From Kocuria rosea (GTDB lineage Bacteria > Actinomycetota > Actinomycetes > Actinomycetales > Micrococcaceae), in the NCBI RefSeq assembly GCF_006094695.1, contig NZ_CP035103.1, positions 3,720,001 to 3,784,000 of the forward strand: a DNA stretch of 64,000 nucleotides, read 5' to 3'. Made by a program: the position numbers and the translations under genes. The notes beneath the pieces are model-generated. The model was not told the origin of the DNA. It was given only the letters and a program-made list of their open reading frames with translations, and searched no databases. Below are positions 14,767 through 64,000 of this stretch, piece by piece. Within the stretch, counting starts at the first letter, position 1, and every line of letters begins with the position of its first letter.

Positions 14767-14927
14767 GGTTCCTCCTCGGTGTACGCCGGACGCCCAGTGG
14801 CATAGGGTCCGATGTGATGCGTGTCACCACTGTGGGGCCGAGGGGGTTTCCCCGGCGTTGCATCAGGACGGACGCCGTGACGGGCCCCGTGACATCGGGA
14901 CGGACGCAGAGGACGGAGGAGCGCGCT

Positions 14928-16031: not shown

Positions 16032-16202
16032 GCCGGGACGGGGGCACGACGGCGCCGACCGGACCGGCCGGATGCCGGCGCTCCCCCGCACCGTTCACGA
16101 CCCCTGTGAACGTCGGTGAATCCGGTGAATCTCGCTCCGGGCGGGGCTCCGACCTGAGACCTCCGGCCACGGTGCGTCCGGGCTCGTCGTCCGGAGCGGG
16201 CC

Positions 16203-16613: not shown

Positions 16614-16718
16614 GGGAACTCCTGGAGCTTCGGCGGGCCGGGTCTCCATGCTCCCCCCGCCCTCCGATCGGCACAACGGTGTGACCGCCCCGTTGCGGTG
16701 CACGGTGGGCGGCACCGT

Positions 16719-42993: not shown

Positions 42994-43284
42994 GGAGCAC
43001 ATCCTTCTGTCGCTACGTTCAACATGGCAAGCCAGGGTTCTGCGCAACCCAATACCTCGATGAATATTCCACACGCAAAGAGGCTTTGCCCACCGGCGCG
43101 CTGGAGCGGCAGGCGCGTGTATATTCAGCACGCCAAGGCCTCCCAAAAGGGTGGTCGCGGCGAAACATGCCACCAGTGCGACGCAGGGGACTGCCCCCGG
43201 TTCACCTGACTCCTTGACCTGCCCCACGGCTTGGTTACCCCTGTGGGTGTGAAGATCGGTGCATCTCCTCGAGAGGCTCCGACC

Positions 43285-43581
43285 ATGCCGCGACCCTTCC
43301 CTGCCGAGTTCCGTCTCCGTGCCGTCGCCCTCGTGCGTGCCGGCAAGACCATCACCGCCACCGCCGCTGAGCTGGGTATCAGCACCGGTGCCCTGCACAA
43401 CTGGGTCCGTCAGGACCAGATCGACCGCGGCGAACGGCCCGGGCTCACCACCCACGAGTCGGCGGAGCTGGCGAAGGCGAAGAAGCGGATTCGCCAGCTC
43501 GAGGCTGAGGTCGAGATACTCAAGCGGGCCGCGAAGCTGCTCGGGGAGGACCGTCCGGCCCCAAAAGGATTTATCCGGTGA
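43285..43581 (+). CDS. IS3-type transposase OrfA
   Basis: A 98-residue HTH protein beginning PRPFPAEFRLRAVALVRAG, with AAELGISTGALHNWVRQ and a leucine-zipper-like KAKKRIRQLEAEVEILKRA. It overlaps orfB by four bases (GTGA). The CCAAAAGG stretch near the end is a plausible -1 frameshift site for the OrfAB fusion. Confidence 0.88.
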   Translation: MPRPFPAEFRLRAVALVRAGKTITATAAELGISTGALHNWVRQDQIDRGERPGLTTHESAELAKAKKRIRQLEAEVEILKRAAKLLGEDRPAPKGFIR

Positions 43582-45646: not shown

Positions 45647-46345
45647 CGCGAGAAGGCAAAATCTACTGCTGCGCGGTGCTGGATGCGTTCTCCCGCTTCG
45701 ATCGTCGGCTGGTCCATCGACAACCATCAGGACTCCCCCCTGGTGGTCAACGCCCACGACATGGCCATCAAGAACCGCCGGCCCACACCGGGCGGGATCG
45801 TGCACGCCGACCACGGTGTGCAGTTCACCTCCTGGGCCTTCACCCACCGCATCCGAGAGGCGGGCCTGATGCCCTCGATCGGGACGATCGGGGACGGCTA
45901 TGACAACGCGATGATGGAATCGTTTTGGTCCTCCATGCAGATCGAGCTGCTGAACCGGAAGAGGTGGCGCACCCGGATCGACCTGGCCAACGCGATCTTC
46001 GAGTACATCAAGATCTTCTACAACCGCCAACGGCGTCACTCCCAGCTGAACTACGAGTCCCCGGTCACCCACGAACTACGCTACGAAGCACCATCCATCC
46101 CCGCCCGATTTTCAGACCTCACGAGGTAAGCGAACCGTGGGGCAGGTCAAGGAGTCAAGGAAAGTCGGGGCAGTCCCCAGTGACACAGGGTGACCGATGC
46201 GCAAGTGTGCTTCCCCGAGGGGACCCCCAATGTTCCTACCTCTACCTGTCAACGGTCAGCGGGACTTCCCGGTAGGCGGTCAGGTGATCTCCCCGTCTGC
46301 GGACAGCTGATCTCCCTGTCCGCGGTCAGTTGACCTCCCTGCCGG

Positions 46346-47131
46346 TCAGTTCAGTGGGACCACCCCGCGTCCGGCGGTGGCCTCGGTGAGCCGCAGCGAG
46401 GTGCCCTCGGTGATGATCACGTGGGCGTGGTGCAGGAGCCGGTCCACGGCGGCGGTGGCCAGGGTCTTGGGCATGATCGTGTCGAACCCGGCCGGGTGGA
46501 TGTTCGAGGTCACCGCGAGGCTGCGGCGTTCATAAGTCGCATCGACGAGGCGGTAGAAGGCCTCGGCGGCGGCCTGGCCCGAGGGCAGCATCCCGATGTC
46601 GTCCACGACGATGAGCTCGGCCCGGGTGATCCGGGCGATGGTCTTGCCGATCGAGCCGTCCGCCCCGGCGCGGCCGATCGCGGCGGTCAGCGACTCGAGG
46701 GTGAACCAGGAGACCCGCATCCCGGCGTCGATGACCTGATGGGCCAGGGCCTCGACGAAATGGGTCTTGCCCGTGCCCGAAGGCCCCGAGATCGCGAGGT
46801 TCTCCGCCCGCCCCACCCACTCCAGGGTGGCCAGGGCCGACTGGGTCGGGACCGGGATCGAGGAATCGGCTTCGCGCCAGGAGGCGAAGGTCTTCCCGGC
46901 GGGCAGTCCGGCGGCTTTGCGGCGTGCGGCCCGAGTGGCCTCATCACGCCCGCGGGCCTCTTCGGCCAGCAGCACCCGCAGGACCTCGGTGGGGTCCCAC
47001 CGTTGGGAACGGGCGGTGGCCAACACCTCGGGGGCGGCCGCGCGCAGATAGGGCATCCGCATCCGCTTGAGCACCGCGGCGAGGTCTTCGGGCAGCGGCG
47101 GTGCTGCCGGGGCGGTGGTGGCCGTGTTCAT
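46346..47131 (-). CDS. istB: IS21-type helper ATPase IstB
   Basis: A 261-residue AAA+ ATPase. Walker A is ISGPSGTGKTHFVEAL and Walker B is ELIVVDDIGMLPSG, followed by SLAVTSNIHPAGFD. IstB assists the IstA transposase in target capture. Its ATG overlaps the istA stop by four bases. Confidence 0.95.
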   Translation of the reverse strand: MNTATTAPAAPPLPEDLAAVLKRMRMPYLRAAAPEVLATARSQRWDPTEVLRVLLAEEARGRDEATRAARRKAAGLPAGKTFASWREADSSIPVPTQSALATLEWVGRAENLAISGPSGTGKTHFVEALAHQVIDAGMRVSWFTLESLTAAIGRAGADGSIGKTIARITRAELIVVDDIGMLPSGQAAAEAFYRLVDATYERRSLAVTSNIHPAGFDTIMPKTLATAAVDRLLHHAHVIITEGTSLRLTEATAGRGVVPLN

Positions 47132-48726
47132 CGAGCGGTCTCCTCGGTTGTGGTGGTTGTGCTGGTTGTCGTGGTGGCGCCGAAGGTGGCCCAGGCGGCG
47201 GTGCCGGGCTGGGCGGAGTGGGTCTCGTCGGCGGCCACGAGTCCGGCGGCGGTGGCCCCGGTGGCCTGGTGATCGCAGATCGCGGTCAGATCCCCTTCGC
47301 TGAAGCGCCCGGCGGCCGCGGCGATCCCGAGGGCGGCGTCCACGGGCCCGGCCCCGATGAGGGCGGCGAGCTCAACCGCGGCGGCCATCTTCGCCCGGAT
47401 CCGGGTAGCCCCGGCCGCGGAGGCCTCGATCAGCCAGGTGTGCGCCCCGGCGCCCAGGGCCAGGAAGTCCTTCTCCGCCGCGCTGCGGGCTCGTGGCCGG
47501 GGCGGGCGTGGGGCACCAGTGGGGTCTTGGGGGTGGTCGGGGTAGTGGGCCAGGTCGATCCGCGGATTGCCCGGGGTCGAGAGGCGGTGGCGGGCGACCT
47601 CGGTGAGCCCGGCACGCCCGGCCGCCCACCCCGGGGCCACCGGAAGGGTGTCGAGGTCGGCGACGACCACCAGCTCCTCGGCTGCGACCCGCACCCACAC
47701 CTCGGCCCCGACCAGGCCCGGTGGGGTGGAGTAGCGCACCGAGCCGAACCGGATGGTCTGGTCGGTGCCCACCGTGCGGGTCACCCCCAGGGCGGTGGTG
47801 TGCGGGGCGGCCGGCAGCACGTGCAACCGTCGTTGTTCCTCGGCCAAAGCGTGCTCCGGGATCTTGGCCGTCTCCCGGTGGGTGCGCCCGTTGACCTTGG
47901 CGCAGAACGCCGCGCAGGCGGCCTCGAGTGCGGCGAAGGAGCCGTAAGCTGCGCGCAGGTTCGCCTCGGTGGGCACCAGATCGGCCTTGGCGATGCGCAC
48001 CGTGGACTCCGACCCGCCCTTGGACTCGGGGTCATACGGCACGCAGGTGTGCACCTGCGTGCCGTAGTGCCGGCCGGCTTCCACGATCTGCGGGTGGCGC
48101 ACCGCAACCCCGGCCACGTGATCGACGGTCACGGTTCTCGGGTTGTCGGTGAGCACATAGGTCGGCACCCCGCCGATGAGGGCCAGAGTCGCATCCAGGC
48201 ACCCGATCAGCGTCGGGAGGGTCTGGTCCCATACAGGGATCACCACCCGGAACCGTGACCACGCCAGCCAGGCGCAGAACAGCCACGTGCGCCGCGGCAC
48301 CCCGTCCGCGCCGGGCACCTTCGGGCCTTCGCCCCAGTCGAACTGCAGCCACAGACCCGGCTCGGTGATCCAGGGCCGGTAGGTGCGCCGGTGCCCGGCC
48401 CGCCATACCGCCTTCACCTGCGCCACGGCCCGGCGGGTGGTGCGCTCGGTCCCCGGGAACCCCACCGCGACCAGGCGGGCGTGGACGACGTCGGCGCGGA
48501 CTGTGCCCTGGCTGCGCTCGACCCACTCCTCGATCTTCGGCAGGTAGGCGTCGATCATCCGAGGACGACGGCCCGGGCCGGTCACCGGCCGGCCCGCGTC
48601 CCGGGCGGCGGCGTAACGGCGGACCGTCTTCGGATCCACCCCGGCCAGGGCCGCGGCCGAGTGCGCGGAGCCGGTGGCGTCATATGCTTCGAGAATTTCC
48701 ATGATCTCCCTGTCAGACTTCTTCAT
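47128..48726 (-). CDS. istA: IS21-type transposase IstA
   Basis: A 532-residue transposase with an N-terminal HTH (ATGSAHSAAALAGVDPKTVR) and DDE residues in WLQFDWGEGPKV, YVLTDNPRTVT and KGGSESTVRIAKADL. The C-terminal tail is Thr-rich. ATG 48726 has GGAGGG just upstream; an earlier in-frame start would add nine residues without a ribosome site. Confidence 0.95.
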   Translation of the reverse strand: MKKSDREIMEILEAYDATGSAHSAAALAGVDPKTVRRYAAARDAGRPVTGPGRRPRMIDAYLPKIEEWVERSQGTVRADVVHARLVAVGFPGTERTTRRAVAQVKAVWRAGHRRTYRPWITEPGLWLQFDWGEGPKVPGADGVPRRTWLFCAWLAWSRFRVVIPVWDQTLPTLIGCLDATLALIGGVPTYVLTDNPRTVTVDHVAGVAVRHPQIVEAGRHYGTQVHTCVPYDPESKGGSESTVRIAKADLVPTEANLRAAYGSFAALEAACAAFCAKVNGRTHRETAKIPEHALAEEQRRLHVLPAAPHTTALGVTRTVGTDQTIRFGSVRYSTPPGLVGAEVWVRVAAEELVVVADLDTLPVAPGWAAGRAGLTEVARHRLSTPGNPRIDLAHYPDHPQDPTGAPRPPRPRARSAAEKDFLALGAGAHTWLIEASAAGATRIRAKMAAAVELAALIGAGPVDAALGIAAAAGRFSEGDLTAICDHQATGATAAGLVAADETHSAQPGTAAWATFGATTTTSTTTTTEETAR

Positions 48727-49006
48727 GCGTCCCTCCGGCGGGTGATGGCTCAAGGTGGTCAGAGACCTCGAGCGAACCCCCGGAGGGACGTCTGCATGGG
48801 GACCGACACGAGCCTGGCCCCGGGGCTGAGAACAGGGAGATCAGCTGTCCGTCAGCAGGGAGGTACGTGTCCGCCTACAGGGAGATTGGCATGTCCGCTA
48901 GCACTACCTGACACAGAGCGCGAAGTGTGGTGCCTACGGCGCTCAGTTGGCCCCCTAAAGGTGGCATGGTGCCCATTCGGGGGGACAAGCACAGGAGGAT
49001 GTCTGC

Positions 49007-49586: not shown

Positions 49587-50369
49587 TCACTGCAGGTTGG
49601 GGTTGAGGTCGGAACCGTGTACAAGCTCGTATAGAAAGCCCTCGACTTCTCGCATCTCAGATTCCACCATTTCCGCCAAGTTGGCATTGTCCAAATACAC
49701 CCCGAACTCGACGTTGTTCCATTCGGCACTTTTGGAAAGATTGGCGCTGGTCACCAATAGAAATCGGTGGTCAATGATCAGGAACTTGGCGTGGTTGCGT
49801 ACCAGCGTCCCGTCGAATGTTCTGGTGCGCAGCACGGTGGCCGGGCGAAGGTGATCCGCCACCTCCTGAGTCGTAGGCGACCACTCATGAGGTTCTGTGT
49901 CGGCTGCACCGGTATCGAGATAGACCCGCACGGTGAGCTCTGTGCGCTTGGTAGCGTCTCCCAAGGCCTTCCACAGTATCGATGACCGTTGGAAGTTGAA
50001 CGTGGAGCACGTGATAGACGTGCGAGCATGTTCCACTAGCCGAGACACGGACCCCGTCAACGCGCCGGACTGCGCCAGGTGCCCAGGCATGGTCCAACGG
50101 GGTTCAACGGCAGTTGCAGTGGAACGTGCACCGTGCAGCGCCCGCAGGACCAGCACGGTCCGTTCGCGATCCACGGCCCCGAGCCCTGAGCGCCTCAACA
50201 GGTCACTGGCAACTTCCCGCCGGCCGGGTGCAACAGCGTTCAAGGCCATGGTGATAGTGGCACCGGACGCGAGGCGGTCGGCCACTTCCTTCGCCTCGGT
50301 TCCGGTCAGGAAGCGCCCGAGGTCAAAGGCCGGCGCGTTCTCAGCCGTCGATATTTCCGAAGAAGCCAA
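49587..50369 (-). CDS. drmC: DISARM PLD-family protein DrmC
   Basis: A 260-residue protein with one PLD half-site, RNHAKFLIIDHRFLLVTSAN, giving a complete HxKxxxxD and the trailing SAN(L)S. Upstream are helical segments (LTGTEAKEVADRLASGATI). DrmC is the accessory nuclease-like component of DISARM and is dispensable in some studied systems. The start is probably TTG at 50369 with GGGAG six bases upstream; this places it 29 bases inside the drmB end. It is the last gene before the terminator. Confidence 0.85.
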   Translation of the reverse strand: MASSEISTAENAPAFDLGRFLTGTEAKEVADRLASGATITMALNAVAPGRREVASDLLRRSGLGAVDRERTVLVLRALHGARSTATAVEPRWTMPGHLAQSGALTGSVSRLVEHARTSITCSTFNFQRSSILWKALGDATKRTELTVRVYLDTGAADTEPHEWSPTTQEVADHLRPATVLRTRTFDGTLVRNHAKFLIIDHRFLLVTSANLSKSAEWNNVEFGVYLDNANLAEMVESEMREVEGFLYELVHGSDLNPNLQ

Positions 50370-52003
50370 GGGTGCTCCCAGGGAGATTGACGAGGAAGCG
50401 CCGGTCCAGGAACCTGTTGCCTCGCTCGCAAGATGTCTCGGATGCCATGGAGCAACAGTGACAGGAGGCACCGTGCAAGAAGTCCTCAGGATCCGTCGGA
50501 GTACGCATCGCGCAGACTGGGTCCGAGGAGCACCGAGTGGCACGGTACAGCGCTCCCTTCACCACTTGCTCGAGGCGAGCAGGTTCGCTGAGCTGCACCA
50601 GTCCACCAAGCGTGCCATCACTGTCCGAGGCGGTAGTGGCAATGAGAACTCCAGCGGCTGGGGGGCGGCCTTCGACACCTTCCCAGGCGTAGAGCCGCTC
50701 GGTGAGGCTCGCAGCCGAGTAGCCGCATGTCATTGCCATCTCACGCAGAAGGACGTGGGCGAGGGTGTGAATCAGCCAGTAGCGCGGCGGCTTGAGGCGC
50801 TCGTCCGGGTTGACGTCGGCGGCCGTTTCCGAGAAGCGCCGGTTGAAGTTCCGTCGATGGGCGTCACGATGAGCTTCCCACGTGTCGCTCGCATAGATCC
50901 GCTTCTCCCATGCCTCAACCTCGTTCTCGTCCAGCTGCAGGAACACGCCCTCACCGCGGTCTTCGGTGGCGACAGTCCATGCCGGCCTTGAGGTACGGGT
51001 CAGGGGCACGAGTCGTCGGGGCAGGTCTCCCACCCGGTCCATGTCGTCGATGCGGGTGAAGCCGAGGAGGGCGTTGACCTTGCGGAGCCGTTCGACCGCG
51101 AGGACTCGCGTGATCTCGTGACGCAGTTGGGGACCACGTTGACGGGTGGACAAGGTGAGTCCGCTGGCGCGGTCTTCGTGCCGATCGCCCAGTGGGTCCT
51201 TCAGGAGATAGTTCCATTCGGGGACGAGCAGATTGACGGGGTCCCACGTCTGGATCTTCTCGTCCTGTTCCTCCTCGGACGGCGGAGGAGCCATGGCCTT
51301 GGCAACTGCCTCCGCCAGATCATCGTCCGAAAGATCCGTGACATCCACAGATGTTTTCTTCAGAAGTTTCCTGACGAAGTTGAGATTGTCGGCAATGTCC
51401 TCCAGGTCCTCCCCAATCTCAAGGCGAATCTGATCGGCTAGCTCAGCCTCTTCCTCGGTGCTGGACTCCGGCATCACGATGATGGACTGCGTTGCAGCGA
51501 ACCACAGGTTGGAGGCCCCCACCAGCATAAGTTTGGTCTTGTTCTCGCAATTGGGAGCGAAAGCGTCCAAGTGTGGGTGGCGGCCGCGGCAATGGGGCAG
51601 TTTTGATGCACCGACCTCGCCCTGCGCTTCGTTCATGGGGCGCCGGGCCTGGCACGACTCGCATGCGATGATCGCCGACGCGCCTTTGCCGCTGGTCCGG
51701 TCCACCATCCGGAGCGCCGGAAATTCCGCTTTAGGGCACTTCTGCCCGTGGTGCACCCAGGCGTTGTAAGGAAATTCGTCCAGGTGCCCATCGATGCAAG
51801 CCAGTAAATATCGGGCCGGCACGGCCGTCTGTCGCCGGGCCTTGCGCGGGCCGGACCCTGGTCTACCGGTGCACTTCGCATGCTCGAAGCGGGCTTCATC
51901 AGTACGGAAAGGATGCGTGTTCTTGTAATCGAATTGAGGAAGGGAGGCGAGCATGTCGCACCCGGTGCATCTCAACCACTGAGGGAAGACCCGCGAGGGA
52001 ACA
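50341..52003 (-). pseudogene. drmB: drmB, 3' part, separated from its start by an IS481-type element
   Basis: The remaining 554 codons of drmB after the insertion. It begins (counting from the junction) VPSRVFPQWLRCTGCDMLAS and carries zinc-binding cysteines (CTGC, CESCQ, CRGRHPH...C) and a DUF1998-type C-terminal region with SCHCCSMASETSCERGNRF. Translation could restart at a TTG at 51975, which would remove the first 120 residues. With the 5' part (53127-53485) it makes a 673-codon gene in one frame. DrmB with DrmA forms the DISARM core. Confidence 0.88.
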
Positions 52004-52004
52004 C

Positions 52005-53015
52005 CTAGATGTAAGAGGGCATGACGTTATTGGCACGGGCCGGGGTGCGTGAGGCCGGGGGCTGATCGCCGCAGGCGGTATGGGGCCGATGGTAGTTGAA
52101 GTGGTTCACCCAGACCCCGATGGCGTACCGGCGGGCCTGCTCGCTGGCGTAGGGGCGGGCGTAGAGCACCTCGTCGGCCAGCAGGCGGTTGTACCGCTCC
52201 ACCTTCCCGTTGTGCCGCGGCGTGTAGGGGCGGATGCGCTGGTGGCGGCCGGCCAGGGCTTCCACGCAGCGGGTGAAGTCCTTGGCCCGGTAGTTGGCGC
52301 CGTTGTCGGTCACGACGCGGTTCAATCGGGTGATGCCGTGGGCGGCGAAGAAGGCTCTCGCCCGGCAGAAGAACCCGATGGTGGTCACCGCCTTCTCGTC
52401 CTCGAGGGCCTCGGTGTAGGCCAACCGCGAGAAGCCGTCCACGGCCGAGTGCAGGTAGGTGTAGCCGACCTTGGCCCCGGCCCCGCGCTTGGCCGCCTTC
52501 GCGGCGGTGGAGCCGCGGCCGTGGGCCCGCCAGCCGCCGCCGTCGGGGATCCTGCCCACCTTCTTCACATCCAGGTGGACCATGTGCCCGGGCCAGGCGG
52601 CGCGGATCCGTCCCGGGGTCCTGCGGGTGTTCTCGCCGGCGGGGGTGAGGTCGCGCAGGCGGGAGATCCCGAGCCGGTGCAGCCAGCGGCCGACGGTGCG
52701 CAGGCTGATCGCCACGGCGCGGTCGACCAGGTGGCGGTGGATGCGCCGCGCTGACCACTTGTGCTTGCGGCGCCAGCGCTCGATGAGGTCCACGACCGCC
52801 GCCGGGGTGCGGGTGCTGCTGTGCCGCGGGGTCGAGGGACGGTCGGTGAGCCCGGCTTCGCCGGACTCGAGGTAGCGGGCCACCCAGGTCGCCACGGTGG
52901 GCCGGCTGACGCGGAACTCCGCGGCCACGTGGGCCTTGGGGATGCCGTCGTCGAGGTGGCGCAACACCATGCGCAGCCGGCCGGTCGGGGTCAGGGGTGC
53001 GTTAACGTGGGTCAT
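52005..53015 (-). CDS. IS481-family transposase
   Basis: A 336-residue DDE transposase. Two N-terminal HTH units (AAEFRVSRPTVATWVARYLE; SARRIHRHLVDRAVAISLRT) precede the catalytic core with MVHLDVKKVGRI, NRVVTDNGANYRAKDF and RHNGKVERYNRLLADE. The ORF runs five bases past the element's end: its TAG stop is formed by the target-site sequence (TCTAGG on the coding strand). ATG 53015 is used; it has GAGAGAG upstream. Confidence 0.93.
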   Translation of the reverse strand: MTHVNAPLTPTGRLRMVLRHLDDGIPKAHVAAEFRVSRPTVATWVARYLESGEAGLTDRPSTPRHSSTRTPAAVVDLIERWRRKHKWSARRIHRHLVDRAVAISLRTVGRWLHRLGISRLRDLTPAGENTRRTPGRIRAAWPGHMVHLDVKKVGRIPDGGGWRAHGRGSTAAKAAKRGAGAKVGYTYLHSAVDGFSRLAYTEALEDEKAVTTIGFFCRARAFFAAHGITRLNRVVTDNGANYRAKDFTRCVEALAGRHQRIRPYTPRHNGKVERYNRLLADEVLYARPYASEQARRYAIGVWVNHFNYHRPHTACGDQPPASRTPARANNVMPSYI

Positions 53016-53126
53016 GAACGGGCTCTCTCGCGCGGACGGACGGTGTAGGAACTTCCATCCTGTGACGAGGAGCCCGTTCCTCATCTCATCGACGCACCCA
53101 CGCCAAGAACCTCATGACCCACAACA
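52010..53126 (-). mobile_element. IS481-family element inserted in drmB
   Basis: A 1,117-bp element with imperfect ~30-bp terminal repeats: TGTAAGAGGGCATGACGTTA on the left and TGTTGTGGGTCATGAGGTTC on the right (read inward). It is flanked by a 6-bp direct repeat CCTAGA at 52004-52009 and 53127-53132. This matches the NCTAGN target pattern known for IS481. Insertion splits drmB in the same orientation as the transposase. Confidence 0.95.
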
Positions 53127-53485
53127 CCTAGATCTTCGCCTTCGTGCGACATGGACATCTTCTTTGGCTGCCACGGGAACGGCCTGAGCTGCACGTCCGG
53201 GGACTTGAGCATCATGCGGACGACGTCCCGGAGACGGGGAGCGTGAATGACCGGCACTCCGTCGCGACGCGCCCAGATCCGGTCCCAGTCGTCCAGTCCG
53301 GCGGGCATGATCGTGAACTGGGGCAGGTCCATGATCGCACCAGGACCGTAGGTGTAGATCAGCGAGGAAGGGCGTCCAGAGCCCACTTTGGCGCGGTTGT
53401 GCTTGGTTCCCTTTTCGGCTTCCTGCTCGGCGTCACCGAGTGGATCGAGCTCCTGCTGAGAGTCGTAAACGAGCTTGGTGGTCAT
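53127..53485 (-). pseudogene. drmB: drmB, 5' part
   Basis: The first 119 codons of drmB, including the start ATG at 53485, which overlaps the drmA stop (ATGA). It contains the typical DrmB opening: GSGRPSSLIYTYGPGAIMDL, then WQPKKMSMSHEGEDLG just before the break. In the interrupted gene, translation would enter the element and stop at 53081 after 134 residues. The remainder is at 50341-52003. Confidence 0.9.
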
Positions 53486-56400
53486 GAGGCGTCCTCTTCT
53501 CCGCTCGGCATCTGCCAGCCGGGAGTCTTCTCTGTTTCGCGGACGAACAGCCGGTCCTTGATGGGGCTGACCAGCAGATTGATCTCCGGTTGCACCTCTC
53601 GCATGGAGTTGGCCACCACGAACGGCGAAACGTCCTTTGACTGGTCCCGTGCCCGCACATTTTCTGCGCTGATGATGAGCGGTCCGGCCTTGCCCTCATC
53701 AGTGACGCGTTCGTAGACCAGATTCTTCTGTTCCTGGGCCAGGTACTGCCGCCGCTTGATCCATTGGTCGAGTCGATTCTTCAACCGGTTGCGCGCCGTT
53801 TCTGCCGACGTCTCATCCGAGGCCCGCTTCACGCGGGCGGTCAACGCCTCGATGAGCGCGCCAACTGCGTCTTGTTCCGCATCGATCTGCCCAGCGCTTT
53901 TCTCGGGGGAGAGCCCACTTGCGCGAGCAGCCTGCAAGACACGAGTCGCGCTGACGAGCACACCGTCGAGTCCACGATCCATGGACGTCGCAGAGAACGG
54001 CGTGACCGAGAGGGCCTCCACCTTTGCGTAGAAGGTCTCGTGGTAGTGCCGGAACTGCTCGAAGTGGGCCAGGTCCCGGGGACGGGCCCAGTTGCCCAGA
54101 CTCACCACGAGCCCCGGACGGCCGGGGTCACGGCCCACGCGGGAGGAGGCCTGAATGTACTCCGCGGTGTTCTTCGGCTGGCCCACCATCAGCATGAGCC
54201 CGAGCCGGGTGACGTCCACACCAACCTGGAGCATCGACGTCGCCAGGACGACGTCGAACGGATTCACGTCGCGCTTGGCCGGCGTCTTGGCGGCCTTGAC
54301 CAGCTCGGCACGCTCCGTCCTCCCCTTCGTTGAGTCGAACGCAGGGTCGAAGGCGACTGCCATGTCGTCCAGCGTGGTGGTGATGTCGTCGCTCGACACC
54401 CGGGAGGTCAGCTCGGCGAGGTGGAGGTTGCCGTAGTCCGTCCCCCGCCGCCGGGGCAGTGAAGACCAGCGTCGTCCTCCGCTCAACAACGTCTGTACGT
54501 CGTCGAGCATGTACCGGGCCATGCCGGCAAGCTCACGGGTCGCGTTGAAGTACCCGACCAGCGTCAGATAGGGATCGGCGACTTCTCCCGCACGATCCAG
54601 GAGCAACTGGCCCGCAGCCATGAGGATCTCCGCCACGCGGATCTCCGCCGTGGTGAGGCGGACCCCCGTGGTGCTGACCCCGACATATCGACGTCCGGGA
54701 TACTCCTCCGAAACCTCTCGCTCGGTGGAGAAGAAGGTGTTTCCTACGTCCAGCACCTGAGGGGGGAACACCGTGACATCACGGCCATAGAGAGCCCGCA
54801 CCTGGTCGGCCGCGTTGCGCACGGTTGCCGTGGAAGCGACCACCAGCGGTTGCACGGGGGTGCCGTTCTGATCCCGCCAGGAACACATGAGGTCGACGCC
54901 CACCTCGAAGAGACCCACCGTCGTGCCCAAGGCCCCCGTGATGAGATGGAGCTCGTCCTGAATGATCAAATCCGGTGGGCGCAGCCGACCGACGGCGCGG
55001 ACGGCCGCAGGCGGTCCGCCGTCCTGAGACGCAGGATGCTTGTTGCCGTCCTGGATCTCGCAGTGTCGGTAATCCGTGTGGACGTAACCGTGGCGCTCGC
55101 AGTGCTTGCGGACGTACCCGAACAGGGACGCCGCTTCCCCTTCACGGGCCAATCGGGCGAATTTGTCGACGGTGGCGATGAGGAAGGCAGGTGTGAGGCG
55201 GTAGATCTCCTCGTCCACGGTGAGGACGGGAAGTCCTTCCTCTGCCGTACCTCCTTCGGAGAACGGGCAGTCAGCAAACTCGTCACCGCAGAAGACGTGG
55301 ACCCTCCGGGTGGCCTTCTCGGGACGAACATTGCTGACGGTGATCCGGGTGCCGCACCACGGGCACCGCTTGAACTGCAGGACGGTCACGCGTCCGCCCT
55401 TGTTGTCATTGGCCTTGGCGACCTGCTTCTCGGCCTCGTCGAACCGCTTGGGGCTGACATCGGTGCCCACCCACAGGCCGATCCGGAAAGACTCGGCGCC
55501 CCAGGCCTCAGGATCGGCCCGACGGACCATCTCTGCGGCGCAGACGAGGGCTGTGGCCCGCTGGAACTGCTGGGCGGTGAGCAGCCGCAGGGTGTACCGC
55601 ATCAGCACGGCGACCCCGGACAAACCGTTGAGCTCGCCATCCGCCGTCGTGACAATGCCCTGCCGACGGCGCATGGCGAAGGTATAGGCGGCCAACCCCA
55701 AGTAAGCCTCGGTCTTACCGCCACCGGTGGGGAAGAACAACAACTGGGCTTTCGCCAGATCCCCCGATCGAGCGGTGGACGCCGGATCGGTGAGCAGGGG
55801 CAGCTGCATGAGGATGAAGGCGAGCTGGAACGTGCGCCATGAGTGAGCCAGGGGGCCCCTAGCCAGCACCTTCTGCCGGGCGTCGAAAATGCCAGCGCTG
55901 GAGTCCGTGGCGCGGTCACTGGCGACCTGGGTCTGGATGCGCTGATCGGCCATGACGGCGTTCATGAACCTGAAGCACCGCAGCGCTTCCTCATTGCTGA
56001 GCAGGTGCTCAAGGCCCTCCGCGAGCTGCTCCTGCACCTGCCCGGCCTCTTCGATGAGCTCCCATGCATCATCCCGTAGATGACGGGGTAGATCGGACAC
56101 GCGATGCCCTTGCTGATCCAGCCACTGGGCGTAGCCCGTGACGATCGGTTCGAGGCCCTCCCTGAGTTCACGGACATTGGCCTTGGCGAGCACCGTCATG
56201 TCGAGGGTGGCTGCCTCGATCTCCTCGGCTGTGGTCTGCGGGGTCTCGGAGGTGGGCAACCAAGTGGTCCATACCTTGGTCGCGCGGCGCGATCCCTTGG
56301 CGACGTGCCAGTCGACGGAGCAGGTCCGCCCGACCGCGAATTCGAGGCGGTCCCTGTACTGGAGATTCAGCCGGCGCAGCTCGGTGTCCCGCTCGAACCG

Positions 56401-57195
56401 TTCGTCCTCCAAGACGTCACGCACTGGCAGGAAGAGATCCTCGCCCCCCACGTCCGCGTAGAGCTTGGTCTGGTACAGCCACGCATCCACGGGGATCTTC
56501 CGCGACGTCTCGCGGTCGTTGCAGAGCGCTACTTCCACCAAGCGCCGCTTGAGTTCGGGTTCTTCGTACTGGTCGACGCGCAACACCACGTCGTCCATGA
56601 GCGGGAACGTCGTCGTCTCCCTCGCCTTGAGCTGAGCGACCTCCACGACGACGGGAATGTCCACCGGCGTCCGTTTGTAGCGTGTCGTGCCGGGCTCTTC
56701 GCCAGGCATGCTCTTGTAGACGCCCCACGATGCTGTGACCGTGAAGGACGCGCAATCCAAGGGGATTTGGAAACGCAGGCCCATGGACGCCGGAACCATG
56801 AGGCCACGTTTTTGAGGGTCGTCATCCACGTCGTCCTCATCGGCGTCAGCGGTGCTGTCGTCGACTGCCGTCACGGGAACACCACGGCTCTCAGACGCCG
56901 CCACGGCGTCACCCACGTCCGTGGCAGCCTCTTCCGATCCTTCCTCCACAGGATCTACCGGTCCGCCGGTCAAGCGCACCGGAGCAATTCGTCCGACAAG
57001 GTAGGCGACGTCCGGAGGACCGTCGAGGATTTCTTCGTCCCCGCCTGCCGGGCCGAGGAGTTCACGCTCCAAGATATCTGTGAGGTTTTCGCGAGCCGTC
57101 CATGAGCGATTGTCGGGTTCAAAGTTGAGCTCGTAGGGAGCACGCTCTGCCCACCCCCTGGACTGGGCATTTTTGTGACTTACGGATATCGTCAT
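53482..57195 (-). CDS. drmA: DISARM helicase DrmA
   Basis: A 1,237-residue SF2-like helicase. Walker A is LFFPTGGGKTEAYLGLA near residue 490; the DExH-like box is LIIQDELHLITGAL near 745; the C-terminal lobe has MLQVGVDVTRLGLMLMVGQ and QASSRVGRDPGRPGLV near 1020. A cysteine cluster (RCPWCGTRI, VFCGDEFADC) lies between the lobes. DrmA with DrmB forms the DNA-loading core complex that recognises incoming phage DNA. It lies five bases after drmMI and overlaps drmB. The gene is intact. Confidence 0.93.
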   Translation of the reverse strand: MTISVSHKNAQSRGWAERAPYELNFEPDNRSWTARENLTDILERELLGPAGGDEEILDGPPDVAYLVGRIAPVRLTGGPVDPVEEGSEEAATDVGDAVAASESRGVPVTAVDDSTADADEDDVDDDPQKRGLMVPASMGLRFQIPLDCASFTVTASWGVYKSMPGEEPGTTRYKRTPVDIPVVVEVAQLKARETTTFPLMDDVVLRVDQYEEPELKRRLVEVALCNDRETSRKIPVDAWLYQTKLYADVGGEDLFLPVRDVLEDERFERDTELRRLNLQYRDRLEFAVGRTCSVDWHVAKGSRRATKVWTTWLPTSETPQTTAEEIEAATLDMTVLAKANVRELREGLEPIVTGYAQWLDQQGHRVSDLPRHLRDDAWELIEEAGQVQEQLAEGLEHLLSNEEALRCFRFMNAVMADQRIQTQVASDRATDSSAGIFDARQKVLARGPLAHSWRTFQLAFILMQLPLLTDPASTARSGDLAKAQLLFFPTGGGKTEAYLGLAAYTFAMRRRQGIVTTADGELNGLSGVAVLMRYTLRLLTAQQFQRATALVCAAEMVRRADPEAWGAESFRIGLWVGTDVSPKRFDEAEKQVAKANDNKGGRVTVLQFKRCPWCGTRITVSNVRPEKATRRVHVFCGDEFADCPFSEGGTAEEGLPVLTVDEEIYRLTPAFLIATVDKFARLAREGEAASLFGYVRKHCERHGYVHTDYRHCEIQDGNKHPASQDGGPPAAVRAVGRLRPPDLIIQDELHLITGALGTTVGLFEVGVDLMCSWRDQNGTPVQPLVVASTATVRNAADQVRALYGRDVTVFPPQVLDVGNTFFSTEREVSEEYPGRRYVGVSTTGVRLTTAEIRVAEILMAAGQLLLDRAGEVADPYLTLVGYFNATRELAGMARYMLDDVQTLLSGGRRWSSLPRRRGTDYGNLHLAELTSRVSSDDITTTLDDMAVAFDPAFDSTKGRTERAELVKAAKTPAKRDVNPFDVVLATSMLQVGVDVTRLGLMLMVGQPKNTAEYIQASSRVGRDPGRPGLVVSLGNWARPRDLAHFEQFRHYHETFYAKVEALSVTPFSATSMDRGLDGVLVSATRVLQAARASGLSPEKSAGQIDAEQDAVGALIEALTARVKRASDETSAETARNRLKNRLDQWIKRRQYLAQEQKNLVYERVTDEGKAGPLIISAENVRARDQSKDVSPFVVANSMREVQPEINLLVSPIKDRLFVRETEKTPGWQMPSGEEDAS

Positions 57196-57200
57196 GCGTT

Positions 57201-60200
57201 CTACTCCTCCAGAACTTCCCGGACGGGCGACGGCACATTGCTCCGCACGGCAGCACGGCGATGATTCTCTTCAAGAAGGCGATCGAGGATTTCCACGCGC
57301 GCGGCAGGGCTGACAGTCCAACGCTGCGTTTGACGATAGATGTGGAAACCATGGTCGAGGTGGACATCTCCCCAGCCATAAGCAGCCATTACGCTTTTAT
57401 CTATTTCAACATGCAATTCTCGGACCCGAGCCACATCAGCGTCAGAATGGCTAGTAATTGCAGGATTATTTACCATATTGTAAAGATTCGTCAATCCTAA
57501 ATGTCGGGTTAACATAATTTTTCGACGCTCAGCATCCAAATTTTTGCCCGCTTTCTCAACTCGATCACTAAGTACGGGCCGCGGAAAAGTTTCAAAAACA
57601 TCAGATGCAGCATATCGGACTCGCGTTTCAAGAGTGGAACCGTATGCAATAGCCCAAATTTGATGGGGACTTGACGAAATTACCGCTTGGTCTTGGTACG
57701 AGTCAGTAGCAAACACAGTCAGCGAATCGCTCAAAATTTGCGCTGCTGGCACTCTTATCGGCATTACCGACTTGCTAACGCGTGCGATTACTAAGACCTC
57801 CCCTAGTGCAGAAATTGCCTTACGCATCCCGGGCCGTTTTTCCGCATACTGCCACCAACGCTCACGAAGCGCCCTGCGATTTACTTCTTGCCGCTCCCCC
57901 TTGACTTTTTCAACAAGCCGCTGGTATGGCAAAGCATACTTTGCGGCTTCGAGTTCCGAGCGATCATAAAAATCAATCACCCAGCGTGACGCCGAAGCAT
58001 CGGGGCGCGCACTGATATCATCTCCGTTTAAGTAAGGGAATAGTACATCCGCATTCTGAGAGTCTTCCTCGATCCAAGCAAGCGCCTCTTTTTCGCCGAG
58101 GACAAACCCCTTGCCTAAAACAATGCAACCCTGGAAAGCAAACAAAGAATTCTCCGCCAGGCGATACGGTGCACCGCAAACTTTGCTCGCTGGCTCGAGC
58201 TTGGTAGATATATCGTTGACCGCCAAACCGTCAGCAACCCTATGGGCTTGTCTTGATAATTCACCAAAAATACCCCATACTGCTGCAAATTCAAGGTTGG
58301 CGCTACGCGCGGGCCAAGCTCGACTTTGAATTGATCGATTTATAGTGAATCCGTCAGCAACCATGCGATCCAATCCTACTTCTCGGGTGATACCCTGGGC
58401 GATTGAATTTGTTGCGATCAAGCCGAGAGTTCCGCCGCCCCGCAAGAGTGACATGGCACGCAAAAAGAAATATGCGACAAAGTCCGCGCTTCCCTTTTTG
58501 CCTTCAGCCAGCACATTAACGAGCCAGTCTCGTATATTAGTTCCCATAGAGCCAGTCAGTTTTTGACCACCCAGGAATGGTGGATTTCCAATGATAGCGT
58601 CAAATCCTCCACTGGCCATGACATCTGGGACTGACAAAATCCAGTGAAGAGGCTTCCACCGCTCATAGTCAGTCGTCACCGTAGGAGTGAGTCCGCTGGC
58701 AATGATGGTGTTGAGCATGGACGAATTGGCCAACTCTCCTATGGCGGGGTATGCCCTTTCAACAGCGATGCGCAAGTTCTCATACGTTTCATTAAGCGCA
58801 CGCCCGGGCTTCCCGCCCACCTTCAAACCAGCAGCCACCACGCCATCGGCGATACGAGTAAGCTTGGCTGTGAGGTTCTGATATTCTCGCCATTGGCGCC
58901 GCTTCGTCGCCGCCGAACGCTGAGGATCAGAGTCATCGATTTCCGTGGCTAGTCGGCGACGCAGGCTAGCGGCGTCGACGAGGATTCCAGAGACGTCGAG
59001 ATCGTAGAAGCTGACATTCTGGGACGCGGCCTTCGGGTCGATGTGCAGGCGTTCAAGCTGCTTGGCGTCGGTCAGACCGAGCAACGAATTGCCGTGGAGA
59101 ACCTTGTCGTCGACGAATGAGAACGGCAGTTTGGGATCCAGGGACACCAGCCACAGCGAGAGCTTGCACATCTCTACGGCCATCTCGTTGATGTCGGCAC
59201 CGTAGAGACAGCTCGCCACGATTTGTCGCACCGCGTGCGTCTCCAAACTTTGAGCGCTTCCTCGTGCGACGCCCTCACGATGCCATGCTTCGACGAGACG
59301 CTTGCCGAGGTAACGAGCAGCCGCCACGAGGAACGCCCCAGAACCGCAGGCGATGTCCGCCACCTTAAGGTCGAGGATCTTGTCCGAGGAAACAGGCTTC
59401 CACTGGTTCCGCTCAGCAGTCTGGTGCGGGCCCGGTGAGTAGACGAGCGGCTCCAGGGCGTGCTCCACGACTTCCTCGGCGAGGGAGCGGGGTGTGTAGT
59501 GGGCCCCGGACGTGGACCGAGACGGCGTCTCCACCACCGCCAGACCGCCGGGTGCGATGACCACCGGACGGCCGCGCAGATCACGACGGATGATGCCGAT
59601 CCAGCTCCGCAATCGGGTGCGGAGCTCCTCGTCGGCGCCCGTCACAGTCAGGAGGGCGCGCACGGCGTCCTCCTGATTGTCGCCCGAGGCTAACGCCTTG
59701 GCGAGCCTGGACTGGGTCGGTGCTTTGGCCGCCGGCTGGTTGTCTTTGACCCATTTGAGGATCGCCTTGGCGATCACCGTGTCGTCGAGCTCGCCGTCGG
59801 AGAGGTCCTCCAGGACATTCAGAGGAATCTCCGGCTCCACTCCGTCAGTCCCCAGAAGTCCGACGACCACTCGGTCGACCTCTCGGCTGGAGTAGCCCAG
59901 CAGACCCTCGTAGATGTAGCCGATCTGCTCGACGTCGATGTCTCGGAAGGAGATCCGGCGGGCCGGCTCGCCCTTGAGCTCGGTGACCTGCACGGAGCGA
60001 AGGATCTCGAGCATGACACGATCGCTCACCGTGACGGCAAGCGTTCCACGCTCTGTGCGGGCAGTGAGGAAGGGCATGCGCGCGGCGTCGAAAAGTGAGC
60101 CGCCGTAGGAAGGCAGGCGCATGTCCTCGAACGACGCGCCCCGGTACAGGGCCTGTGAGGTGGCGAGGAGCCGGTGCCAGGTGAGATGGGTGGCATCCAA

Positions 60201-61241
60201 CGATTCGGCGCCCTCGTCCCGGGCGCGCTGATCGAGGAGGTCCAACTGGTCACTGATGCCGTAGCCCATGGCGAACAGGCGCCCTTGCGGTAAGAGCCCT
60301 CGTTCCTCGGCAAAGAGGAGGAAGACCACGCGCATCATCACGGTGACCGCAGCCTCGTACACCTCACCGCGGTTCTCAGGGAGGGGGTCCGGATCGCCGC
60401 GGCGCTTGGCCTCAAGACCGGCTTCTGAAAACGCCTGAACGAGGAGCTCCACGGCCTTCCGGACCTGGACGCCAAGGGCGTCTGTGATCTCCTCGGCAGC
60501 CGCCACAGAGGCTCCAAACAACTCGGTGAGCCGCTCGGACGGCTTGCCTCCGAGCAGCCGCTTGCGCTGCAGCAGCTCGACGAACGCGTTGCGGGTTGCC
60601 GGCTCCTCGATCCACGTCTGGGAGTCGACGACGCCGGAGGCGACCATCGTGGATTCTCGGGCGCTGACGATGGCCCACCACCGTCCGTCGGTGACCACCC
60701 CGATGCGCACCCCGCTGTGGCGCAGCAGCTCTTCCATGCGGTCGATCGGACTCGCGGCCCATCCGTCGTCGAGGGCCGCACGGAGGGAGTCGACGGGATC
60801 GACCTCGAGAACCAGCGCCCCGACATTCTCACCGTGGACGAGGGCCCCCGAGGGGAGGACGGTGACGGCGTGGTTCGGCGAGCGCACTCCCGAGGCAGCA
60901 TCAGCGACTGCGGGTAGTGCGAGGTCGGTGACGTAGCTATTGCCCCAGCCCAGGACGTCCCTGAGCACCGTCTCGACCCATGTCTGCTGCGCTTGGCGGT
61001 AGGTATTCAGAACGCTGATGTCATCGCGATGGGCGTCCCATCGTTCCCAAGCTCGTTCGAAGAGGGGTTTGGCTTGCTTGAGGACGGCGAGTACGTCACT
61101 GTCCATCGAGGGCATGCCGTATCCCCACACGCTCTTGAGCGCGGGCACGGACAGGAACGGTCCGTCGGTGTCGACGAGCTGAAGCCAGTACCGGTGGCTC
61201 TCGGCCCCGTCTCGCGGGCGTCGGTCGATTCGGCGCAGCAT
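57201..61241 (-). CDS. drmMI: DISARM adenine methyltransferase DrmMI
   Basis: A 1,346-residue N6-adenine DNA methyltransferase of the large class 1 DISARM type. The SAM-binding motif is VADIACGSGAFLVAAA near residue 630 and the catalytic NPPF is FDAIIGNPPFLGGQ near 883. The N-terminal 550 residues resemble the helical part of type IIG/PglX enzymes, and the C-terminus holds the target-recognition region. It methylates host DNA so that self is spared. From about residue 800 on, the gene becomes markedly AT-richer than its first half. Its ATG overlaps the drmD stop (TGATG). Confidence 0.92.
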   Translation of the reverse strand: MLRRIDRRPRDGAESHRYWLQLVDTDGPFLSVPALKSVWGYGMPSMDSDVLAVLKQAKPLFERAWERWDAHRDDISVLNTYRQAQQTWVETVLRDVLGWGNSYVTDLALPAVADAASGVRSPNHAVTVLPSGALVHGENVGALVLEVDPVDSLRAALDDGWAASPIDRMEELLRHSGVRIGVVTDGRWWAIVSARESTMVASGVVDSQTWIEEPATRNAFVELLQRKRLLGGKPSERLTELFGASVAAAEEITDALGVQVRKAVELLVQAFSEAGLEAKRRGDPDPLPENRGEVYEAAVTVMMRVVFLLFAEERGLLPQGRLFAMGYGISDQLDLLDQRARDEGAESLDATHLTWHRLLATSQALYRGASFEDMRLPSYGGSLFDAARMPFLTARTERGTLAVTVSDRVMLEILRSVQVTELKGEPARRISFRDIDVEQIGYIYEGLLGYSSREVDRVVVGLLGTDGVEPEIPLNVLEDLSDGELDDTVIAKAILKWVKDNQPAAKAPTQSRLAKALASGDNQEDAVRALLTVTGADEELRTRLRSWIGIIRRDLRGRPVVIAPGGLAVVETPSRSTSGAHYTPRSLAEEVVEHALEPLVYSPGPHQTAERNQWKPVSSDKILDLKVADIACGSGAFLVAAARYLGKRLVEAWHREGVARGSAQSLETHAVRQIVASCLYGADINEMAVEMCKLSLWLVSLDPKLPFSFVDDKVLHGNSLLGLTDAKQLERLHIDPKAASQNVSFYDLDVSGILVDAASLRRRLATEIDDSDPQRSAATKRRQWREYQNLTAKLTRIADGVVAAGLKVGGKPGRALNETYENLRIAVERAYPAIGELANSSMLNTIIASGLTPTVTTDYERWKPLHWILSVPDVMASGGFDAIIGNPPFLGGQKLTGSMGTNIRDWLVNVLAEGKKGSADFVAYFFLRAMSLLRGGGTLGLIATNSIAQGITREVGLDRMVADGFTINRSIQSRAWPARSANLEFAAVWGIFGELSRQAHRVADGLAVNDISTKLEPASKVCGAPYRLAENSLFAFQGCIVLGKGFVLGEKEALAWIEEDSQNADVLFPYLNGDDISARPDASASRWVIDFYDRSELEAAKYALPYQRLVEKVKGERQEVNRRALRERWWQYAEKRPGMRKAISALGEVLVIARVSKSVMPIRVPAAQILSDSLTVFATDSYQDQAVISSSPHQIWAIAYGSTLETRVRYAASDVFETFPRPVLSDRVEKAGKNLDAERRKIMLTRHLGLTNLYNMVNNPAITSHSDADVARVRELHVEIDKSVMAAYGWGDVHLDHGFHIYRQTQRWTVSPAARVEILDRLLEENHRRAAVRSNVPSPVREVLEE

Positions 61242-64000
61242 CAGCGGGCCACCTTCCCCGCCACCGCGTCCGCCGGCGTCAGCGCGAACACCACGGCGGC
61301 CGCGGAGACGTGCGGTTTGATCTCGGCATAGCGTTCCCGGATGGCGTCCACTTCGCGTTGCTCTTCCTCGGCCAGGCTGGCCAGTCGTTGCTCCATCGCC
61401 TGCATGTCCCGTCGTCGTTGACGCTGTTGGTCGTCGGGCAGCAGCGTCTGTTCCTCTTCCTGAATTTCCCGGGCGAGACGCTGCCGGGACTCGGTGAGAT
61501 TGAGGCGGAAGGCCTGGAAGATCTCCCGGGCGCGTGCAACGTCGGCGTCCCGCCGTTCCTCGAGCGCGGCGGTGACGCGCTGCTGATGGCGTTCAGCGCG
61601 GCGCTCCATGGCCGAGCGCAGTCGTTCCCGGAGGTAGGAGTTGTCGGCGTTCCACTGCTCTGCGAGATACTCGCGCACCGGTCGATCGGCGAGCGCAAGC
61701 TTCTCTGCGTCCAGCGTGTCGTTGAGGAGGTCCTCGACCTTGGCCTCGGCGATGTCCTGCCCGCCGATCCGGATACCGGTGAGGAACACCTCCTCGTGGA
61801 GGCGGATGCCGCCACGTCCCACGAGGACGAGGCGGGACACCGCCGCCACACAGGACTGCGGCAGGTCGTCGACCACCACGGCGGTGACGCGGTTGACCTG
61901 CGAGTCGGTGCTGAACAGCGCCGAGCGCAGCAGGCGCGCCGACTTCTGCATCAGGGCGTGGCCGAGGTGGACGTAGACGAGATCGTCCCGATCGGCGGCG
62001 GCCTGGTCGTCGAAGGTGATCGGACGCCACCGTCCGGGCGTGAGTCGGGTGTCCAGTCCGCGAAGGGCCGTCTGCCAGGAGGGGCCGAGCGTCGGGACCG
62101 CGAAGACCTGCGCGTCAGTCCGCTCGTCCCCGATCTCCTCGAGCTGGGGCTGGGTGGTGAGTGCGAGGGCAGTGTCCAGCACTCGCCGGGCGTTGCCGGG
62201 GGTGAGGTGCATCTCCACCTTGCGCTCGGCGTAGGACTGGGAGAGTTCCGTGAGCTGTCGGCTGAGGTTCATGCCCCCGGCCAGCGTGCGCGTGATGATG
62301 GCGTTGCCGGTGTCCTGCGCCGACTTGGCCGCCTTACGAGTGCGGCTCGAGCCGGTGAAGTGTTTCTGGACCTCCGCGTCGATGACCTGGTTAGCTGAGC
62401 CGAGGTCCTGGGCGACGTTGCCGATCTTTTCGGCGATGCGGCGCATGAAGTCCATGTCGGCCGCGTACGTCGTGGACTTCGACGCCGGCGCGAAGTGGTA
62501 GATCTCGGGCGTGTGCTTCTGTCCGTAGCGGTCGACGCGGCCGATGCGCTGCTCGAGCCGGGACGGATTGAAGGGGATGTCGAAGTTCACCAGTCGGTGG
62601 CAGTAGGCCTGGAGGTCGATGCCCTCGCCGGCGGAATCCGTGGCGACCAGGACGCGCGGAAGCTGTTCGGTGCCTTCGGTGGTGGGGTCGGTGCTGAAGC
62701 GGGCTCGAATGTCCTCGCGCTCCTCGGCCGGGGTGGAGCCCTGGATGACGGCGAGCACGTCGTCGCTGTAACCCTTCTGCTGCAGCACGCGCACGATCCA
62801 GTCCAAGGTGTCGGCGTACTCGGTGAAGACCACGACCCGTTCGTTGGTCCATGTGCCGTCGGGGCGGCAGACGGCGTCAAGGAATTCGATAAGCGCCTGC
62901 AGACGAGAGTCCGGGCGGTGCTCGTAGCTGCTGCCCCAGGCGGTGAGCTCTCGGATCTCCGCAGAAGTTGCGGTGCTGAGCGGGTCCGACTTCTTGCTCT
63001 GCCTCAGCGTGGTGAACTCCGGCTGGTCGAACAGGCCTTCTTCCTCGTCGGAGGCACCACTGCCGAGGACCTCCTCGTAGTAGTCCTCGTCGTCGAGGTC
63101 CGACAAGCGCCCGACGCCGGATGCCGCCTCGTAGTGCTTGAGAGTGCGGGCAAAAGCCCACGGGCTGGACAGGAAGCGTTTCTTCAGAAGCATCGCGACG
63201 ATGTCACCGGAGGACTTCTTCCCGTTGGCCCGTGCGCTGTCCGCCAGGATCCGCGCCAGCTTCTCGAACCGTTCCTGCTCGTCCGCGTCGGGGGTGAAGG
63301 GAAGCGTCTTGACCTGGCGGGCCTTGAAGTCCTTGTCCTTGATCTCGGACTTGAGGCGCCGGACCGCCACCTCCTTGAGGGCTCGCTCGTCGATCGTGGC
63401 CCCGCGGCTGAAGCGCCGGCTGTCGATCATCTCCAGCAGAGCGGTGAAGGATTCGGGGTGTCCGTTGTGAGGTGTGGCGCTGAGGAAGAGACGGTGCTCA
63501 CACTTCTCGGCCAGCGCACGGACCGTGCGCGTGCGATCGCTGTCGACGGCGTAACCGCGGCTGCCGGGAGCGGCACTCGGGCTGGCCGGGGCGACGTGGT
63601 GCGCCTCGTCGACCACGAGGATGTCGAAGGCGAAGCGGCGAGCGCTGTTGGCGTCACGCACCTGGGCGTAGGCGTCACGGAGGAGCCGTTGTGCCCGGAG
63701 GCCGGAAAGCCAAGCCATGCTGACGATCACCCGGGGGAACAGGTTGAACGGGTTGGCGTTGAGGCCGTGCGTCCGGCGGACTTCGGCCATAAGGTCGCTG
63801 TTGACGATGACGAAGTCCAGACCGAACTTGTCCCGCATCTCGTCCTGCCACTTCAGCGACAGGCTGGGCGGGCAGACGATGACCACGGACCGGGCGCGAT
63901 GGCGCAGCAGGAGTTCCTGGACCACCAGGCCCGCTTCGATGGTCTTGCCGAGACCGACGTCATCGGCGAGCAGAAGGTTGGTGCGGGGCGCCTGGAGCGC
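61241..64000 (-). CDS. drmD: DISARM SNF2-like helicase DrmD (N-terminus outside window)
   Basis: The last 919 codons of a SWI2/SNF2-type helicase, open through the window edge. Walker A is LLADDVGLGKTIEAGLV right at the edge, motif II VVDEAHHVAPASP about 130 codons in, motif III FLSATPHNGHPES, and the C-terminal lobe has TDSAGEGIDLQAYCH and LEQRIGRVDRYGQKH. A coiled coil (REIQEEEQTLLPDDQQ region) ends the protein. DrmD is the marker of class 1 DISARM. The true start lies beyond 64000. Confidence 0.92.
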   Translation of the reverse strand, partial: ALQAPRTNLLLADDVGLGKTIEAGLVVQELLLRHRARSVVIVCPPSLSLKWQDEMRDKFGLDFVIVNSDLMAEVRRTHGLNANPFNLFPRVIVSMAWLSGLRAQRLLRDAYAQVRDANSARRFAFDILVVDEAHHVAPASPSAAPGSRGYAVDSDRTRTVRALAEKCEHRLFLSATPHNGHPESFTALLEMIDSRRFSRGATIDERALKEVAVRRLKSEIKDKDFKARQVKTLPFTPDADEQERFEKLARILADSARANGKKSSGDIVAMLLKKRFLSSPWAFARTLKHYEAASGVGRLSDLDDEDYYEEVLGSGASDEEEGLFDQPEFTTLRQSKKSDPLSTATSAEIRELTAWGSSYEHRPDSRLQALIEFLDAVCRPDGTWTNERVVVFTEYADTLDWIVRVLQQKGYSDDVLAVIQGSTPAEEREDIRARFSTDPTTEGTEQLPRVLVATDSAGEGIDLQAYCHRLVNFDIPFNPSRLEQRIGRVDRYGQKHTPEIYHFAPASKSTTYAADMDFMRRIAEKIGNVAQDLGSANQVIDAEVQKHFTGSSRTRKAAKSAQDTGNAIITRTLAGGMNLSRQLTELSQSYAERKVEMHLTPGNARRVLDTALALTTQPQLEEIGDERTDAQVFAVPTLGPSWQTALRGLDTRLTPGRWRPITFDDQAAADRDDLVYVHLGHALMQKSARLLRSALFSTDSQVNRVTAVVVDDLPQSCVAAVSRLVLVGRGGIRLHEEVFLTGIRIGGQDIAEAKVEDLLNDTLDAEKLALADRPVREYLAEQWNADNSYLRERLRSAMERRAERHQQRVTAALEERRDADVARAREIFQAFRLNLTESRQRLAREIQEEEQTLLPDDQQRQRRRDMQAMEQRLASLAEEEQREVDAIRERYAEIKPHVSAAAVVFALTPADAVAGKVAR

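Follow-up and report, generated by a model that had tools for sequence, protein, structure and literature searches.

In the stretch of Kocuria DNA analysed here (64,000 nucleotides, below called the window), the drmB gene of a class 1 DISARM locus is split by an insertion sequence of the IS481 family. Four identical copies of the element occur in the genome, each with its own NCTAGN duplication, which shows that the insertion is genuine and makes a recent origin probable. The explanation we prefer, at a probability of roughly 0.87, is that an IS481-family element already resident in the strain placed a copy of itself in the probably acquired DISARM locus, at one of the two CTAG sites of drmB and probably not long ago. 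DrmB would thereby have lost the N-terminal part that is gripped by DrmA, so that no functional DrmAB is expected and DISARM would be off. The insertion would thus be a loss-of-function mutation and not a programmed switch.

What did drmB look like before the element arrived? The 5' part of the gene (53127..53485, minus strand) comprises 119 codons and 2 bases; as present, it runs into the insertion sequence and stops after 14 foreign residues. The 3' part (50341..52003, minus strand) lies in a frame that is open from within the element, its first start being a TTG at 51975 that would give 544 aa. A sequence-only reading of this DNA had described a clean interruption, and this description holds: the flanks 50341-52003 and 53127-53485 add up to 2,022 bases, or 674 codons including the stop, and are open across one CCTAGA with no internal stop. 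The joined product of 673 residues contains EGEDLGVPSRVFPQWLRC, and the junction cuts it after residue 120. A comparison with close relatives, also suggested by that reading, found an uninterrupted drmB in Kocuria dechangensis, whose intact protein is 93% identical to the joined DrmB over 672 aligned residues.

The two halves of drmB had been described as free of further decay, and the substitution pattern agrees. The dN/dS ratio between the window and K. dechangensis is 0.13 for drmB, and the changes assigned to the window branch, given as amino acid to silent, are 5:28 in drmB (595 codons), 10:38 in drmA (1,230 codons) and 5:32 in drmMI (737 codons). These counts were polarised with five outgroup loci (L009-L012 and L068), using only sites at which at least four outgroups agree; they cover drmA, drmB apart from a divergent block, and drmMI up to residue 749. 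On this evidence, drmB shows neither relaxed selection nor any further decay.

The divergent block spans residues about 296-361 of DrmB (51280..51477, minus strand). It affects two 30-residue bins, in which identity to K. dechangensis drops to 40-48%; every other bin lies at 90-100%. The block looks like a variable region, because it is located almost wholly in a stretch (query residues 303-408) that phmmer leaves unaligned between two conserved parts of DrmB. A pairing of this block with the target recognition domain of the DrmMI methylase was considered and rejected, since the two show no co-variation in 27 loci once background identity is removed (partial r of -0.16 over 351 pairs, -0.24 over 172 and 0.03 over 112). 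A locus was retained, as 27 of the 40 were, if it had ORFs of 600 aa for DrmB, 1,200 aa for DrmMI and 1,100 aa for DrmA. In the pair formed by loci L014 and L015, the DrmB blocks are 92% identical and the expressed recognition domains 64%. Separately, the DrmB relative L070 (G234 contig 399) carries one internal TGA and is the sole stop-containing match among the 26 places listed.

The assignment of the locus to DISARM is borne out by profile searches. DrmA, DrmC and DrmD exceed the NCBI DISARM cut-offs (NF038325, NF038319 and NF038317) and have no internal stops; DrmMI matches the PADLOC model PDLC02643 with 1651.6 bits and has no DISARM model match above cut-off in the NCBIfam search. All genes lie on the minus strand. 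The drmA helicase gene (53482..57195; 1,237 aa) is open, as is the drmMI methylase gene (57201..61241; 1,346 aa), which keeps its DIACGSG and NPPF motifs. The drmD helicase gene (61241..64000) is likewise open, so that all three look intact, as had been noted; it extends past the window to 64600 and encodes 1,119 aa. A truncated drmD was considered and rejected: the listed ORF, which begins at 63925, is part of a gene that reaches 64600. The earlier gene list also gains drmC (49587..50543), an open frame for a PLD-like protein of 318 aa. Of the genes that class 1 DISARM requires, drmA, drmC, drmD and drmMI are thus present and open, and an intact drmB is lacking.

The locus was probably acquired horizontally, because drmB is found in just 2 of the 27 genus genomes searched (G000-G026), namely the window genome itself (G000) and K. 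dechangensis (G021); across the whole search, 5 of 59 genomes matched. Between positions 48001 and 64000, the G+C content of the eight 2-kb steps ranges over 58-67%; the first 13 steps of the window have 71.5-74.5%. The class 1 DISARM of K. dechangensis CGMCC 1.12187 (L008) has the same gene order (drmD, drmMI, drmA, drmB, drmC), and its proteins are close to those of the window (DrmA 94%, DrmB 93%, DrmD 97% over the 618 residues compared). A near-identical uninterrupted drmB was not found: in the genome collections K. dechangensis is nearest (92%), and a plasmid search gave nothing beyond diverged relatives of the insertion sequence. In a protein search with the drmB 3' part (7,998 candidates scored), only its own cluster P0001 exceeded 76% identity among the best 120 of 1,486; P0001, the 90% cluster with the truncated product of the window, consists of 2 member sequences on 4 contigs.

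Other genes lie beside the DISARM locus. Three ORFs on the minus strand at 36720-43455 match the PADLOC models ZacA, ZacB and ZacC, and McrBC-like genes follow past them, beyond the window. The stretch between the zac ORFs and DISARM (44015-48753) holds a transposase with HTH_38 and an integrase core, which is probably IS30-like, and an IS21-type pair (istA/istB-like).

What is lost with the first 120 residues of DrmB? In the Serratia DISARM, the DrmA-DrmB heterodimer is essential, and in the solved complex the DrmA C-terminus wraps around the DrmB N-terminus, according to the available text of PMC9142583. With K. dechangensis DrmB as the query, the junction falls near residue 91-92 of the Serratia chain 7s9v_B, which has 619 residues; the insertion therefore detaches the N-terminal part of DrmB. 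Because the Serratia system depends on the heterodimer, it is very likely that DISARM is off in the window strain, in support of the earlier suggestion that the locus is probably off. It is plausible that DrmMI continues to methylate, and a polar effect on drmC is possible.

The 3' fragment might nevertheless be made, and a partial function is conceivable for its 544-aa frame. Alone, the drmB 3' part scores 578.8 bits against a DrmB family cut-off of 240 and covers profile positions 96-603. Internal translation could then, in principle, yield a DrmB that is good enough for a working DISARM even without its first ~130 residues. The translation would, however, have to start at a TTG within the gene, with the insertion sequence standing between the 544-aa frame and the native start. 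Moreover, the absent part is the place where the C-terminal arm of DrmA binds (PMC9142583, available text), and we regard a system that still works as very unlikely.

The element itself (52010..53126, minus strand) is 1,117 bp long with TGT...ACA ends. Its termini read TGTAAGAGGGCATGACGTT and TGTTGTGGGTCATGAGGTT, the latter on the opposite strand, with terminal inverted repeats that start with TGT. The 6-bp target-site duplication CCTAGA is perfect, as noted before, with a left copy at 52004..52009, which conforms to NCTAGN, and a right copy at 53127..53132. The transposase, a 359-aa ORF in the sense of drmB (52005..53084, minus strand), has a D172-D260-E296 triad with DD35E spacing and matches the IS481 family model NF033577 with 300.5 bits (cut-off 224), in line with the family first proposed. 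The element lacks a stop codon for this ORF: the left copy of the duplication provides the TAG.

A search of the genome found 4 full copies of the element with 0 mismatches over 1,117 bp, as well as 3 short partial matches. The perfect 6-bp repeats differ from copy to copy (CCTAGA, CCTAGG, GCTAGT and GCTAGC) and conform to NCTAGN in all four; the final residue of the transposase varies among I, T, N and S. These identical copies suggest that the element has actually transposed, and together with the undecayed drmB they support the recent look that had been ascribed to the insertion; gene conversion among copies, or slow drift, would fit the same signs. At least seven other genomes of the genus contain full-length relatives, with 94% identity for the best copies, and three Micrococcus plasmids carry further full-length relatives (76-78% identical, annotated as IS481 family transposase).

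The element resembles known members of its family. ISRe46/TnRErm46 of Rhodococcus equi and ISLxc2/ISLxx4 of Leifsonia xyli share its TGT ends, NCTAGN target and 6-bp duplication (PMC6794481 and PMC2516522, available text), and a stop codon borrowed from the target is likewise described for ISLxc2/ISLxx4 (PMC2516522) and for ISRe46 (PMC6794481) in those same texts. The length of ISLxc2 is given there as 1,105 bp (PMC6794481, PMC2516522), compared with 1,117 bp here; the window element is different from both.

Could the element serve as a reversible switch? Clean loss of an element of this kind would be expected only through accidental slippage between its 6-bp repeats. The sequence-only reading had proposed that precise loss would turn drmB back on, and the perfect repeats and the intact frame of the empty site would indeed allow such loss in principle. 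A switch would require the element to leave precisely, and at a useful frequency, so that DISARM is restored; we consider this highly unlikely, as excision is nowhere indicated. A genome search with the drmB 3' part finds a single drmB in the assembly, occupied by the element, and among the literature matches listed there was nothing on point about excision of insertion sequences in defence systems, nor was any insertion in drmB evident by title. The transposase is not expected to excise its own copy cleanly, because the IS481 family is thought to move by copy-paste (PMC6794481, available text). Reactivation through excision is possible, but it would be accidental.

With its need for CTAG, where could the element land? 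The empty site of drmB contains two CTAG, and the 64-kb window has 23, compared with about 60 expected from trinucleotides, so the motif is depleted and its scarcity restricts the landing places of the element. The density is 0.62 per kb in the DISARM part (49587-64000), a figure that includes both the element and the CTAG duplicated on insertion, and 0.27 per kb in the first 26 kb of the window. The idea that acquired DNA is a preferred target through its CTAG density was considered and is weakened, because the neighbouring zac operon has 0 CTAG in 6,736 bp; a general preference for acquired DNA is thus unsupported.

The comparison with K. dechangensis brings out a second feature of the locus. 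Apart from the interrupted drmB, the two loci match in DNA blocks of about 90% identity. The exceptions are the drmMI 3' part, the short block in DrmB and the tail of DrmC, whose final ~48 residues are unlike those of K. dechangensis. The first 750 residues of DrmMI are mostly 83-100% identical, but in residues 991-1320 the identity per 30-residue bin is 36-66% for the protein and 42-63% for the DNA. Since silent sites are affected too, this is a replacement and not fast protein evolution. The replaced part (window 57204-58994) includes the MmeI-type target recognition domain (DrmMI residues 1043-1223; 57573..58115, minus strand). The seven closest locus pairs among the 27 loci, which overlap in their members, have 84-98% identity in the N-terminal part of DrmMI and 51-73% in the recognition domain. 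Judged from these alignments, the recognition domain of DrmMI is exchanged between close relatives, the window locus included. In another locus, L088, drmMI is seemingly split into two overlapping ORFs (14414-17526), possibly by a frameshift.

Might such an exchange have led to the loss of drmB? A swapped recognition domain could have left self DNA unprotected, so that the loss of drmB was selected as relief from autoimmunity, and the replaced recognition region in a locus otherwise mostly ~90% identical to that of K. dechangensis would fit. However, loci with an open drmB also show swapped recognition domains, which argues that swaps are tolerated, and such selection is most improbable. There is just as little to favour the drmB loss in the window as a tolerated outcome of a swap. 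Weakest of all is an assembly artefact: four identical 1,117-bp copies could mislead a short-read assembly, but the genome is a single contig of 3,946,651 bp rated 100% complete, and each of the four copies is flanked on either side by matching duplications, a pattern that a mis-join between copies would disrupt, so that an artefact is scarcely credible.

How are recognition domains exchanged? A search with the DrmMI C-terminus found only its own gene in the window genome, and no silent second recognition cassette. In six related DISARM loci, an inverted second recognition cassette lies beside drmMI together with a recombinase gene, and two of these are inversion isomers. In the tyrosine form, the cassette is accompanied by inverted repeats and a tyrosine recombinase gene (L014, 2892-5642; L015, 2894-5641; L101, 9363-12351; L102, 7651-10255). 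In L014 (Streptomyces sp. LBL) and L015 (S. tuirus PHM034), the inverted second domain separates drmMI from drmA, and the inverted repeats measure 402 nt (95%) and 408 nt (85%), respectively. The recombinase gene adjoins the cassette; its product matches PF00589 in L014, and the L015 homologue is 94% identical. L014 2892-4779 matches L015 in reverse, at 89.9% over 1,892 nt, whereas the flanks on both sides give direct matches of 90.4% and 90.8%; the two loci are therefore inversion isomers. The expressed domain of either locus is matched at 86-90% by the silent cassette of its partner and at 61-64% by its own silent cassette.

The tyrosine form extends beyond this pair. Among 392 genomes of the genus of G166, a search for the recombinase found two at E 1e-60 or better (L101 and L102). 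In both, the recombinase gene sits in a DISARM locus, flanked by drmMI and drmA; each locus also has an inverted cassette, and the inverted repeats are 266 nt (99.6%) and 359 nt (93.9%) long. At E 1e-60, a protein search brought up at least 73 proteins related to this recombinase.

In the serine form, the inverted cassette is associated with a large serine recombinase (L071, 11305-13259; L073, 9902-12554; L074, 9765-11525). The recombinases of L071 and L073 carry PF00239 and PF07508; L074 has the same recombinase, and its contig ends within the cassette. Within the class, 394 genomes were searched for this recombinase; three matched at E 1e-100 or better, through these same three loci. The cassette of L071 is partial, with an inverted repeat of 335 nt at 75%. 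In L073, a DNA inverted repeat was looked for and not found, and active inversion is disfavoured there for this reason. The case for the serine form is thus weaker than that for the tyrosine form. The drmMI end and drmA are both visible in 29 of the 40 loci, and an inverted cassette is present in four of these (L014, L015, L071 and L073), a count that leaves out L101 and L102, which came from the recombinase search. The other 25 have no inverted cassette, three of them with other DNA between the genes (L077, L082 and L086).

This arrangement is reminiscent of phase-variable type I restriction systems with an inverting hsdS, which also have inverted repeats, a silent second specificity cassette and a site-specific recombinase (PMC4948785 and PMC11709252, available text). 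Unlike those systems, the DISARM relatives have a single-chain methylase, and its C-terminal recognition domain makes up the cassette, which is absent from the window genome. We think it likely that the specificity of the DISARM lineage is swappable, and that inversion in some relatives would exchange the expressed and silent domains, giving a phase-variable DISARM. No description of a phase-variable DISARM was found among the open-licence literature matches listed, an absence that weighs little, and no statement on it was found in the available text of PMC12458937 and PMC12707154.

The insertion in drmB is the product of an ordinary mechanism and is of modest interest; the swappable or invertible specificity of DrmMI in the relatives is the stronger lead. 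For surveys of defence systems, the window locus carries a practical lesson. Automated annotation would probably call drmB present, as its 3' fragment is sufficient by itself to exceed the family cut-off for DrmB, and would probably score as complete a DISARM that is very probably dead; such surveys need checks of gene integrity. If the reading of the inverted cassettes is true, a recombinase coupled to an inverted cassette would let DISARM change the sequences that it marks as self within a clonal population. The question would then be how a restricting DrmAB spares a chromosome whose marks have freshly changed.
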